Below, one piece after another: positions 1,785-5,564 of a stretch of DNA of 39,370 bases. Source of the stretch: an archaeon (lineage in GTDB: Archaea; Nanobdellota; Nanobdellia; Woesearchaeales; GW2011-AR4). The notes beneath the pieces are model-generated. The model was given only the letters and a program-made list of their open reading frames with translations, was not told where the DNA came from and made no database searches. Within the stretch, counting starts at the first letter, position 1, and each line of letters opens with the position of its first letter. The stretch is from assembly GCA_002688925.1 (NCBI GenBank), contig NZEC01000010.1:1-39370 (forward strand), in the 5' to 3' direction. A program made the position numbers and the translations under genes.

Positions 1785-4199
1785 CTATTGTCTTTTTTTG
1801 AGTTTTTTTTCTGCATCCAAAACACTTAAAGTTGTTTTTATGATTGCGTCTGGTGTTAATGACATGCTATCTATGCTGCGTTCAACTAAAAATTTTGCAA
1901 ATTCTTTTGAAGAAGAGGGTGCATCCCCGCATAATCCTATTTTTCTTTTGTTCTTTTTTGCGGCCTTGATTACTTGTGAAATAAGACTTTTAACAGCCGG
2001 GTTACTCTCATCATATATTGGAGCTACAAGCTCCGAATCCCTATCTAGACCAAGAGTTAATTGAGTAAGGTCATTTGTTCCTATGCTAAAGCCGTCAAAA
2101 ATCTTTGAAAATTCATCTGCTAAAATAACATTTGAAGGAATCTCGCACATGACATATATCTCAAGCTTATTTTTCCCGCGCTTTAGCCCGTACTTGCCCA
2201 TCTCATTTATTACTTTTTTTCCCTCTTCAACAGTCCTGCAGAATGGAACCATAATTTTTACATTAGTTATGCCCATAACATCTCTTACTTTCTTAAAAGC
2301 CTTGCATTCAAGTCCAAAGGCTTCTTTATAATTATCAGAATAATATCTTGATGCGCCTCTCCATCCAATCATCGGGTTCTCTTCTTTTGGCTCAAAAGAT
2401 TTTCCTCCGATCAAGTTAGCATACTCGTTGCTCTTGAAGTCTGAAAGCCTTACAATAACATCATTTGGGTAAAATGCAGCGCCTAGAGTTGCAATCCCCT
2501 CAGCCAGCTTATCAATAAAGTAATCAGCTTTGTTATTCTCATAGCCTTTAATCAACTTTAAAATTTTCCTTCTTGCTGCAGCATCCTTGACCTTATTAAA
2601 ATATAATAAAGCAAGAGGATGAATTGAAATATAAGAATTTATTATGAATTCCAGCCTTGCCAGACCAATCCCTTCATTCGGGATAAAGCTCAAATCGAAA
2701 GCTTGTTCGGGATTGCCAAGGTTCATCATTATCTTTGTTTTTGGCCGTTTAAGTTTCTTTAAATCAGTTTTTTTGTTTTGGAATTTTAGCAAGCCTTCAT
2801 AAATATAGCCAATCGAGCCTTCGGCACAGCTGACAGTCACATACTGTCCATTTTTGATTTTTTTAGTTCCAAAACCTGTTCCAACTATGCATGGAATCCC
2901 TAATTCTCTAGCTATAATTGATGCGTGGCATGTACGGCCTCCCTTATCTGTAACTATAGCAGAAGCGAATTTCATTATAGGCTCCCAGTCCGGATCAGTC
3001 ATCTCTGTTATAAGCACTTCTCCTTTTCTGAATTTATTGATATCAGAAACATCCTGGATTATATGCGCCTTGCCCTGCCCTATTTTATCCCCAACACTCA
3101 TTCCTGATACCAGCTTTTTACCTGTTTCAAGCAGCTTATATTCTTCTAAAACATTAGCATCTTTTTGGCTTTGGACTGTTTCGGGCCTTGCCTGAACAAT
3201 AAATAATTTGTTTGATTTGCCATCCTTTGCCCACTCGATGTCCATTGGCTTGAATTTTTTTGCTTTTTTGGAATAATGCTCCTCAATAATAACTGCCCAT
3301 TTGGCTAATTGCAGGACCTCATTGTCGCTTAATGCATACTTATTGCGCAAGGCTTCAGATACTGGTACATTTCTTATTGTTTGCCCTGCTTTGTCAGAAT
3401 AAATCATCCTGATTTTTTTATCTCCTAGTTTTTTGCTCAATATCGGCTTATAGTTATTTAGTTTCGGCTTGAAAACATAAAACTGGTCAGGATTCACTGA
3501 ACCTTGAACAATATTTTCCCCCAATCCATAAGCACTATTGATTAAAACAGCGTTTCTAAATCCTGTTTCTGTGTCAATGGAAAACATTACGCCGCTTGAA
3601 GCTAAATCACTTCTGACCATCTTCTGAACTCCAATGGATAAAGCAATTTTGAAATGGTCAAAGCCCTTGTCCACCCTATATGAGATTGCCCTGTTGGTAA
3701 ATAAAGAAGCAAAGCATTTCTTGCATGACTCAATTAAATCTTTTTCTCCTTTAATGTTAAGGAAAGTTTCCTGCTGGCCTGCAAAGCTTGCATCCGGAAG
3801 GTCTTCAGCAGTTGCGCTGCTCCTGACAGCAACGTCTGCAGTCATTTTATATTCTTTAGAAAGCCTGTTGTAAGCTTTTACAATTTTTTTTCTTAACTCT
3901 TCAGGAAATTCTGCCTGAAGAATAGTTTCCCTTACTTTTTTTCCTCTTTGTGCAAGGTTTTCCATGTCATGTGTGTCTAAATCAGAAAGAATTTGCTTTA
4001 TCTTATTCTTAATTTTTGCTTTTTTTAATAAATACCTGTAAGCGTATGCAGTTACAGCAAAGCCATTTGGGATATTAACTCCTTTTTTTGTGAGATTCCT
4101 GTACATCTCACCCAAAGAAGCATTTTTTCCCCCAACTAAAGGAACATCACCTATACTTAAATCTTTAAACCAAAGAACAAACTCTTTTTTCTTATTCAT
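1785..4199 (-). CDS. ppsA: Phosphoenolpyruvate synthase (pyruvate, water dikinase)
   Basis: VGGKNASLGEM N-terminus, GGRTCHASIIARELGIPCIVGT phosphohistidine domain, C-terminal SIGTNDLTQLTLGLDRD and GLCGDAPSS; internal ATG (MNKKKEF) with upstream aggtgg preferred over ORF-track start 4220. Confidence 0.95.
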   Translation of the reverse strand: MNKKKEFVLWFKDLSIGDVPLVGGKNASLGEMYRNLTKKGVNIPNGFAVTAYAYRYLLKKAKIKNKIKQILSDLDTHDMENLAQRGKKVRETILQAEFPEELRKKIVKAYNRLSKEYKMTADVAVRSSATAEDLPDASFAGQQETFLNIKGEKDLIESCKKCFASLFTNRAISYRVDKGFDHFKIALSIGVQKMVRSDLASSGVMFSIDTETGFRNAVLINSAYGLGENIVQGSVNPDQFYVFKPKLNNYKPILSKKLGDKKIRMIYSDKAGQTIRNVPVSEALRNKYALSDNEVLQLAKWAVIIEEHYSKKAKKFKPMDIEWAKDGKSNKLFIVQARPETVQSQKDANVLEEYKLLETGKKLVSGMSVGDKIGQGKAHIIQDVSDINKFRKGEVLITEMTDPDWEPIMKFASAIVTDKGGRTCHASIIARELGIPCIVGTGFGTKKIKNGQYVTVSCAEGSIGYIYEGLLKFQNKKTDLKKLKRPKTKIMMNLGNPEQAFDLSFIPNEGIGLARLEFIINSYISIHPLALLYFNKVKDAAARRKILKLIKGYENNKADYFIDKLAEGIATLGAAFYPNDVIVRLSDFKSNEYANLIGGKSFEPKEENPMIGWRGASRYYSDNYKEAFGLECKAFKKVRDVMGITNVKIMVPFCRTVEEGKKVINEMGKYGLKRGKNKLEIYVMCEIPSNVILADEFSKIFDGFSIGTNDLTQLTLGLDRDSELVAPIYDESNPAVKSLISQVIKAAKKNKRKIGLCGDAPSSSKEFAKFLVERSIDSMSLTPDAIIKTTLSVLDAEKKLKKRQ

Positions 4200-4256: not shown

Positions 4257-5366
4257 TTACTTAGTAACTTGGGCACTTGTTTTGGATAATGTTCTATAAG
4301 CATCCATTATCAAATCTATTGTTGTTTCCAAATCTAAACATGGGTCAGTTACCGATAATCCATATTCTAATGTAGAGCGGTCAAATCCTCTAAGATTAGA
4401 GGGAATTTTTTGATTTCCAGCCTTTAAATTAGATTCAAGCATTAGCCCAACGATACCCCTATTTCCATCTTTAACTTGTTTAATTGTATCCTGAAATACA
4501 TCTATTTGTTTTTTATAATCTTTTTTGCCCTCTCCATCCATTGTATTGTCATGACTACAATCAACAACTATATTCGGAAGCAGATTTTTACTTTTTAACA
4601 TCTCCTGAGCCCGCTCAACACTTGCCTTATCATAATTTGGACCAGTATCTCCACCTCTAAGTACTAAGTGAGTATCTGTATTGCCTGATGTTTTCGCAAT
4701 GGAAGATGTGCCATATTCATTAATACCTAAAAATGGACGTCCTATTTGGGCAGCAAGAATAGCGTTGACTGCAATACTAACATCGCCATGAGTGTCATTT
4801 TTAATACCTACTGGCATTGATAGACCAGAAGCCATTTTACGATGTTGTGGTGAATATGCTGTTCTTGCTCCTATGGCTGCCCATGAAATCAAATCTGAAT
4901 TGTATTGGGGTGTAAAAGATTCTAAATACTCGGTTGCACATGGTAAACCTAATTCTGATATCCTTAACAATATCTTACGTGATAAATGGTAACCTTTGTT
5001 AACATCATCTGATCCATCCATATTAGAATCAATAATTAACCCTTCCCATCCCAAGCTAGTTCTTGGTTTTTCAAAATATGTCCTTATTATAATTAAAAAT
5101 CTATCAGAAACTTTAGCATCTAACTCTTTAGCCCTCTCAGCATAATAAAAAGTTGCTTCAGTATCATGAATTGAACATGGACCTGTCGTAATAAAGATCC
5201 TATCATTATTATTTTTATTGAGAATATTTTCTATATCTCGCCTTCCCCGTATAACTGTTTCTTTAGCTTGTTCTGATCTTGGAATATCCTGCATAACTTG
5301 ATATGGGCTTATTAACGGTGTATATTTAATAATTCTTGTATCAATCAAACCATTACTCTTTTCCAT
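4257..5366 (-). CDS. aroG: 3-deoxy-7-phosphoheptulonate (DAHP) synthase, type I-alpha AroF/AroG/AroH-like
   Basis: GPCSIHD, YFEKPRTSLGWEGLIIDSNMDGSDDVNKG, GARTAYSPQHRKMASGLSMPVGIKN, LRGGDTGPNYD, DCSHDN. ggaggt precedes the ATG at 5366, so the TTG start at 5378 is unlikely. Confidence 0.93.
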   Translation of the reverse strand: MEKSNGLIDTRIIKYTPLISPYQVMQDIPRSEQAKETVIRGRRDIENILNKNNNDRIFITTGPCSIHDTEATFYYAERAKELDAKVSDRFLIIIRTYFEKPRTSLGWEGLIIDSNMDGSDDVNKGYHLSRKILLRISELGLPCATEYLESFTPQYNSDLISWAAIGARTAYSPQHRKMASGLSMPVGIKNDTHGDVSIAVNAILAAQIGRPFLGINEYGTSSIAKTSGNTDTHLVLRGGDTGPNYDKASVERAQEMLKSKNLLPNIVVDCSHDNTMDGEGKKDYKKQIDVFQDTIKQVKDGNRGIVGLMLESNLKAGNQKIPSNLRGFDRSTLEYGLSVTDPCLDLETTIDLIMDAYRTLSKTSAQVTK

Positions 5367-5416
5367 TTTAACCTCCAAATTTGATTTAATTTTATTAACA
5401 ACAACCTAAGAATCAA

Positions 5417-5533
5417 CTCTTTTTTTCGTTCCAGGCAAGATGGTTTTTCAGACCAAGCCAAAACGGAACTTGTAAAGAGCACATGGACTAATTAAAAATA
5501 GAAATAAAAACCAAAAAAGTTTTGTGCTCTCAT
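5417..5533 (-). promoter_or_regulatory. Putative attenuator: competing RNA stems between leader ORF and aroG
   Basis: Stem 1 AGAGCACA (5530-5523) : TGTGCTCT (5483-5476). Stem 2 CTCTTT(5479-5474)/GTTCC(5469-5465)/GGC/TGGT pairing with ACCA/GCC/GGAAC(5432-5428)/AAAGAG(5422-5417). The two stems share CTCT (5479-5476). Confidence 0.5.
5492..5533 (-). CDS. Putative leader peptide MRAQNFFGFYFYF* upstream of DAHP synthase
   Basis: Minus strand reads ATG AGA GCA CAA AAC TTT TTT GGT TTT TAT TTC TAT TTT TAA; 7 of the last 8 codons are Phe/Tyr; located about 125 nt upstream of the aroG-type CDS. Confidence 0.6.
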   Translation of the reverse strand: MRAQNFFGFYFYF

Positions 5534-5554: not shown

Positions 5555-5564
5555 TATTAATAAA
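5555..5564 (-). promoter_or_regulatory. Putative archaeal TATA box for the leader/aroG transcript
   Basis: Minus strand aaaaaagTTTATTAATAagc; A-rich BRE-like segment upstream; about 26-27 nt from the leader ATG, the spacing expected for a leaderless start. Confidence 0.5.

Follow-up and report, generated by a model that had tools for sequence, protein, structure and literature searches.

A short aromatic ORF between pfkB and aroG

The window, meaning the whole stretch of 39,370 nucleotides that we analysed, carries pfkB (6561-5575), aroG (4257-5366) and ppsA (1785-4199) on its minus strand, and a short leader ORF (5492-5533, minus strand) sits between the first two of these genes. Read on the minus strand from 5533 to 5492, its codons are ATG AGA GCA CAA AAC TTT TTT GGT TTT TAT TTC TAT TTT TAA, translated as MRAQNFFGFYFYF*, which is exactly the Phe/Tyr-rich leader peptide that the original prediction had placed between pfkB and aroG. 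A Shine-Dalgarno-like GGAGGT (5371-5376, minus strand) precedes aroG, the product of which contains 2.2% Phe and matches TIGR00034. The enzyme is a DAHP synthase of the AroFGH type, which corrects the earlier designation as archaeal: bacterial control genomes contain this family, and the archaeal control genomes do not. The gene behind aroG, ppsA, encodes PEP synthase and is found in this position at four of the five aroG loci of the family; PEP is a substrate of DAHP synthase.

The genome to which the window belongs (G000) measures 0.86 Mb and is 85% complete. It is placed with Woesearchaeota, tiny archaea that are probably symbiotic: the named genomes with a related aroG are Candidatus Woesearchaeota MAGs, and the nearest genomes belong to its own family. 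Among 570 ATG sORFs (8-40 aa) lying upstream of 851 ORFs in G000, only two have at least seven F/Y/W within eight residues, MRAQNFFGFYFYF included. We regard rarity in one genome as weak evidence by itself, and conservation across genomes as decisive. The second of the two sORFs, MVADAMISRQKRRNKYFFYYFYFSKWKLDLTIFLNC, is located on contig C18 ahead of a methyltransferase-like ORF (92270-93001).

Conservation of the leader across genomes

In the window's family, represented by 36 genomes, each of the five AroFGH-type aroG genes has an aromatic leader ahead of it, the other four peptides being MRANSFFGFSYWF, MKANNNFWFYFYF, MKANTLFWYFRLYF and MLKINSKSNFLSFSYSFFYFGW. Leaders are also present ahead of four aroG genes elsewhere in the phylum; distant forms are MIFQQQVYFWYF (L012), MKVNACEDNAFALASFSFKPFSFFFCFFYW (L018) and MNPTKENQYKVNGFSLDSKFYYYW (L024), and the aroG of L028 has a possible leader. 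About half of the aroG genes are without one: the leader is absent from eight other aroG loci, five of which (L010, L011, L013, L014 and L026) start closely after another gene. In an AroG tree of 12 rows five leaderless AroGs cluster (87/93) and the forks are mostly open, hence this tree does not date the gain or loss of the leader. At L022 (1042-1382), two differing aromatic leader ORFs stand in tandem ahead of a single aroG.

When 26 leaders are pooled, 39% of the codons in the ORF frame are aromatic, versus 15% and 21% in the other two frames, and their count (157) lies above the maximum reached by shuffling (97). From leader to leader, Tyr codons are exchanged for Trp (TGG) and TTT for TTC or other codons, with the frame and the aromatic class retained. 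Beyond that class the peptides are poorly conserved, as their length ranges from 12 to 38 aa and their residues and spacing vary widely, from MIFQQQVYFWYF to MPRATLSFKFFS; FFGF nonetheless recurs among leaders of different families (recurrent motif FFGF.FF). UUU accounts for 73% of the leader Phe codons and for 73.5% of those in the genome, which gives no hint that U-runs are under added selection, and the longest U-runs of the leaders vary from 4 to 7 nt. The T-tract, which the original prediction read as a termination signal, is thus not supported as the conserved element. Across homologues the frame and the aromatic codons persist where the T-tract is lost, which is the reverse of the pattern that the prediction had named as contrary to it.

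Promoter geometry

A TATA box, TTTATTAA (5557-5564, minus strand), is centred 27 nt ahead of the leader ATG in the window. This position, previously given as 26-27 nt, was confirmed, and it is shared: a TATA-like box occurs at -30 to -24 of the ATG in 26 of 29 leaders, centred about 26-27 nt ahead of it, compared with 13% of control sORFs and with 1-6 of the 29 leaders when the search window is shifted. Because of this fixed distance, the transcript is probably leaderless, beginning at the leader ATG or a few nt from it. From promoter position and orientation we infer that the leader ORF and the gene behind it share one transcript.

These data bear on a possibility that the original prediction wished to see excluded, namely that the ORF is a T-rich pfkB terminator that happens to be read in frame. 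The region is AT-rich, and G000 does possess one further sORF of equal aromaticity. However, the frame and its aromatic codons are retained in many genomes behind differing upstream genes, the T-runs are interrupted by TGG, GGC and AGC, and the promoter box keeps its distance, so that a chance origin seems barely conceivable.

Competing helices and a conserved hairpin

The start of the ORF appears to pair with the segment just past its stop codon. In this helix, 1:2, ORF nucleotides 3-14, which include codons 2-4, provide the 5' arm, represented in the window by region 1, GAGAGCACA (5523-5531, minus strand; from the third base of codon 1 to within codon 4). The 3' arm is region 2, TGTGCTCTT (5475-5483, minus strand), which begins 9 nt past the stop codon and can take either region 1 or region 4 as its partner. 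Matched partners outscore permuted ones (p=3e-4, or p=0.0016 with one sequence per family), and none of the other ORF windows tested likewise for post-stop pairing scored. L110 and L113 differ by a direct compensatory change in this helix (GATGCG/CGCATC versus GATGCA/TGCATC); L037 lacks a clear helix 1:2.

The post-stop segment has an alternative partner, a purine-rich stretch that lies about 60 nt further downstream and with which it forms helix P1 (or 2:4). Its strands in the window are GCTCTTT (5474-5480) and region 4, AAAGAGT (5416-5422), both on the minus strand. In the comparison of homologues 98% of the P1 cells are paired, with compensatory changes, and slid controls came nowhere near this value. 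Helices 1:2 and P1 overlap by six bases in the window, and in a few homologues the overlap shrinks to about 2 nt; they are predicted to be mutually exclusive, sharing the post-stop segment and having one arm within the ORF. The distance from the stop codon to P1 is 4-12 nt in 19 elements, which is within the footprint of a terminating ribosome.

P1 encloses a hairpin, GGU-YYGAAAA-ACC, with the loop YYGAAAA in 19 of 19 aligned elements. The copy in the window, GGU-CUGAAAA-ACC (5442-5454, minus strand), has a 7-nt loop like the anticodon loop of tRNAPhe, with GAA at 5449-5447, and the hairpin is present in L153 too. A likely native tRNAPhe of G000 has the loop CUGAAG and another stem, as against CUGAAAA in the element, with the calls of intron-containing tRNAs being unsure. 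Directly 3' of P1 lies UUCU (5409-5412, minus strand), kept in 17 of 19 elements although UUC would be expected in 2.4. The GAA of the loop is complementary to this UUC, and since neither varies, covariation is uninformative on their contact. Two other roles were rejected: reading of UUC as a codon, since it does not keep a constant frame with the leader, and pairing of the loop with the leader Phe codons, since UUUUC is missing from several ORFs.

Folding of the whole leader region of the window was no better than that of shuffles (z -0.2), and the balance between P1 and 1:2 in the window is poorly resolved by this approach. In searches against Rfam 15, which includes the T-box, nothing in the window passed the gathering threshold and the leader region had nothing credible at E up to 10; in 11 homologue loci they gave only an unrelated tRNA.

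The sORF might instead encode a functional hydrophobic micropeptide, with the RNA element regulating regardless of sORF translation. Short aromatic peptides could enter membranes, and the element could act alone, for example by offering PheRS a tRNAPhe-like site, much as ThrRS binds the tRNA mimic in the E. coli thrS operator. Yet the partner of the post-stop segment, region 1, is located within the first codons of the ORF, the stop-to-P1 spacing is confined to the range given above, and residues are poorly conserved outside the aromatic class. We therefore consider this alternative very improbable.

Genes behind the leader and their Phe content

A covariance model built from four, and then seven, leader regions found the element in 20 of the 353 genomes of the order; the model includes the leader and the GAA loop and so favours copies that have both. 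Leader and RNA element together were detected in about 15 genomes of the order beyond those with the five aroG genes of the family. Later searches added L119, L121 and L153, and L153, which was reached via its PDT protein, possesses leader and GAA loop independently of the covariance model. In six genomes the element lies ahead of prephenate dehydratase (PDT, PF00800; L107, L109, L110, L113, L117 and L118, with L113 being 90% identical to L110), and L153, from the protein search, is the seventh. These form a subset, as most PDT genes of the order have no leader. L146 (G519) has a possible PDT leader, MGCLFLVKMKKTADPKIADPAIQTFIFFFQ, from which the GAA-loop hairpin is missing.

The PDT leaders are nearly Phe-only (MAESRFFGFEFFC, MAKHADFFGFAFFN, MPRATLSFKFFS), and the ratio of F to Y+W is 24:4 in them versus 46:31 in aroG leaders (Fisher p=0.018). 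The element was also found ahead of small proteins without Pfam matches (L037, L106, L111, L114, L115 and L119), which contain 0-1.8% Phe; those of L037, L106, L111 and L114 belong to one homologous family. We suggest the small Phe-poor proteins behind leaders as candidates for Phe-starvation proteins.

Biosynthetic enzymes are known to be low in the amino acid that their pathway makes (PMC4209129). In our data, the first gene behind the leader has 1.78% Phe versus 4.94% in neighbouring genes (p=8e-12), and among the 20 residues Phe is the most depleted in leader-controlled genes, Tyr not being depleted. PDT with a leader is poorer in Phe than PDT without one (p=0.003), and the same holds for aroG (p=0.02). 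That the Phe-poor genes stand directly behind the leader supports starvation as the "on" state. The aroG leaders probably sense Tyr and Trp as well, but this is less supported than Phe sensing, because no Tyr or Trp depletion was found in aroG.

TnaC is a nascent peptide that stalls the ribosome with tryptophan. Similarly, the leader (FFGF.FF) could stall the ribosome upon free Phe or another ligand instead of reporting tRNA charging, and the recurrence of FFGF in different families is in keeping with such an arrest. We find this improbable, in view of the wide variation in length, spacing and residues, the F/Y/W proportions that track the downstream gene, and the Phe-depleted controlled genes, which point to a shortage of Phe.

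Proposed mechanism and output

We consider it likely that the locus carries a ribosome-sensed leader-peptide attenuator that is on when charged tRNAPhe is scarce. The attenuator reading of the original prediction is retained here in its frame-conserved aromatic leader, its probably leaderless transcript and, newly, the competing helices; it is given up for the T-tract as the conserved part. Transcription would begin at, or a few nt from, the leader ATG. With no ribosome on the leader, region 1 would pair with region 2 and P1 would be disfavoured, and a ribosome finishing the leader would sit on the stop codon and cover region 2, again disfavouring P1. A ribosome stalled at the Phe/Tyr codons would cover region 1 and free region 2, so that P1 could fold. 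P1 would then be the starvation structure, given that a stall frees region 2 and a ribosome at the stop covers it, and folded P1, carrying the GAA-loop hairpin and the UUCU tail, would be the on state. When the RNA was folded with a ribosome masking the stop, most sequences lost P1, whereas a modelled stall at the Phe codons did not have this effect. Computational comparison thus shows the conserved ORF, the two overlapping helices, the promoter geometry and the Phe-poor genes behind the leader; that the leader is translated, that ribosomes stall on it, which way the switch works and, above all, what its output is are inferences.

For the output, we slightly favour relief of premature termination in the P1 state over control of translation initiation through the P1 fold, and early termination could perhaps use FttA. 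No consistent U-run of an intrinsic terminator follows P1; a U-run of at least 5 directly after P1 is confined to a few homologues (L035, L118), and the window has none. Across 18 sequences, Shine-Dalgarno accessibility did not follow the modelled ribosome state in a consistent way, and sequestration of this site was for that reason not adopted as the output.

FttA could also be involved more directly. Its preferred RNA is U-rich and located 30-36 nt behind the 3' end (PMC11616081), and the U-rich UUU/UUC Phe codons, at nt 16-39 of the transcript, fit this preference. The Phe-codon run would then be a loading site for FttA/aCPSF1, which a ribosome stalled by starvation hides, giving read-through, and which is exposed to termination when the ribosome has passed or is lacking, and P1 would play a secondary part. 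The idea restates the gate of the original prediction, itself a reasonable form of the early-termination route, with the regulation sign made explicit. It would account for the finding that no convincing Trp leaders lie ahead of trpE in 11 genomes. On the other hand, leader UUU use equals the genome average and U-run length is variable, and the idea explains neither the covariation of helices 1:2 and P1 nor the conservation of the GAA loop and UUCU. We judge it unlikely, though the least so of the alternatives to a charging-sensed attenuator that are weighed here.

Within the attenuator model, the GAA loop might in the starvation state dock on the UUC behind P1 in a codon-anticodon-like manner and be read by the ribosome, PheRS or RNA polymerase, switching the gene on. 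Such a combination of a cis-encoded anticodon mimic with leader-peptide sensing is speculative and, in our opinion, rather doubtful.

Comparison with known regulators

Enterobacterial pheL and trpL resemble the element in their short leader ORF with end-product codons, the 5' arm within the ORF, the two partners between which the post-stop segment can choose, and footprint-sized spacing. They differ from it in that the host here is archaeal and the transcript probably leaderless, a GC hairpin with a U-run terminator is not consistently present, the loop and tail sequences are conserved, and the controlled genes often stand outside a complete pathway. We do not class the element with the pheL/trpL transcription type, because the intrinsic terminator that defines it was searched for and not found.

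T-box riboswitches report the supply of aminoacyl-tRNA before aromatic amino-acid genes in many bacteria. Unlike these, the Woesearchaeota element shows no Rfam match, T-box sequence or specifier stem, and it has an anticodon-like mRNA loop where the T-box has a codon-bearing specifier loop. The thrS operator is alike in its mRNA hairpin resembling a tRNA anticodon arm; the present hairpin, however, stands ahead of biosynthesis-type genes, is coupled to a leader ORF, and departs from the native tRNAPhe (CUGAAG, not CUGAAAA). In actinobacteria, leader peptides with codon runs precede amino-acid genes, and several of them lack an obvious terminator; in the LEU element the Leu-codon run pairs with the Shine-Dalgarno sequence of leuA (PMC1262725). 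Codon runs and a conserved RNA fold near the leader are shared with LEU, but here it is codons 2-4 that pair with the post-stop segment, and Shine-Dalgarno pairing is inconsistent.

According to a 2021 paper, no transcription attenuation or antitermination was known in archaea (PMC8448881), and in open-access full texts we found no archaeal leader-peptide attenuator. If confirmed, the element would extend codon-read leader-peptide regulation to archaea, to leaderless transcripts and to a new RNA fold.

Pathway context

Chorismate synthase (aroC) was undetected in 28 of 29 carrier genomes, several of which are 95-100% complete, and PDT was not found in G000 itself. The leader-controlled aroG or PDT of the carriers are the first and last enzymes of Phe synthesis, with the middle steps missing. 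A metabolic rationale based on a complete pathway was abandoned for the absence of aroC, and classical end-product logic is not fully applicable since the host genomes are without this enzyme. If confirmed, the element suggests a Phe-starvation regulon in uncultured, probably symbiotic archaea, consisting of small Phe-poor proteins and isolated first or last Phe-synthesis enzymes in genomes without chorismate synthase. Such isolated enzymes raise the question of exchange with hosts, and our guess is that carriers use host intermediates. In the window's lineage the leader would control the first pathway enzyme, probably together with PEP supply, the middle of the pathway being missing. The original prediction had missed this lack of chorismate synthase, as well as the downstream RNA fold, the PDT regulon and the Phe depletion.

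The one carrier with chorismate synthase, G006, is a member of the window's family and has it at the same locus (L089/L175, contig C66). This locus comprises trpE and further trp genes, a different DAHP synthase, aroB, aroA, aroK, aroDE, aroC, tyrA, pheA and ppsA, as assigned from sequence (trpE and aroC by model). Of the genes from DAHP synthase through ppsA, tblastn recovers only ppsA in G000, and the locus of this aromatic supercluster is, in the window's lineage, reduced to leader-aroG-ppsA. The leader of G006 is intact, and an oppositely oriented ORF lies between it and trpE.
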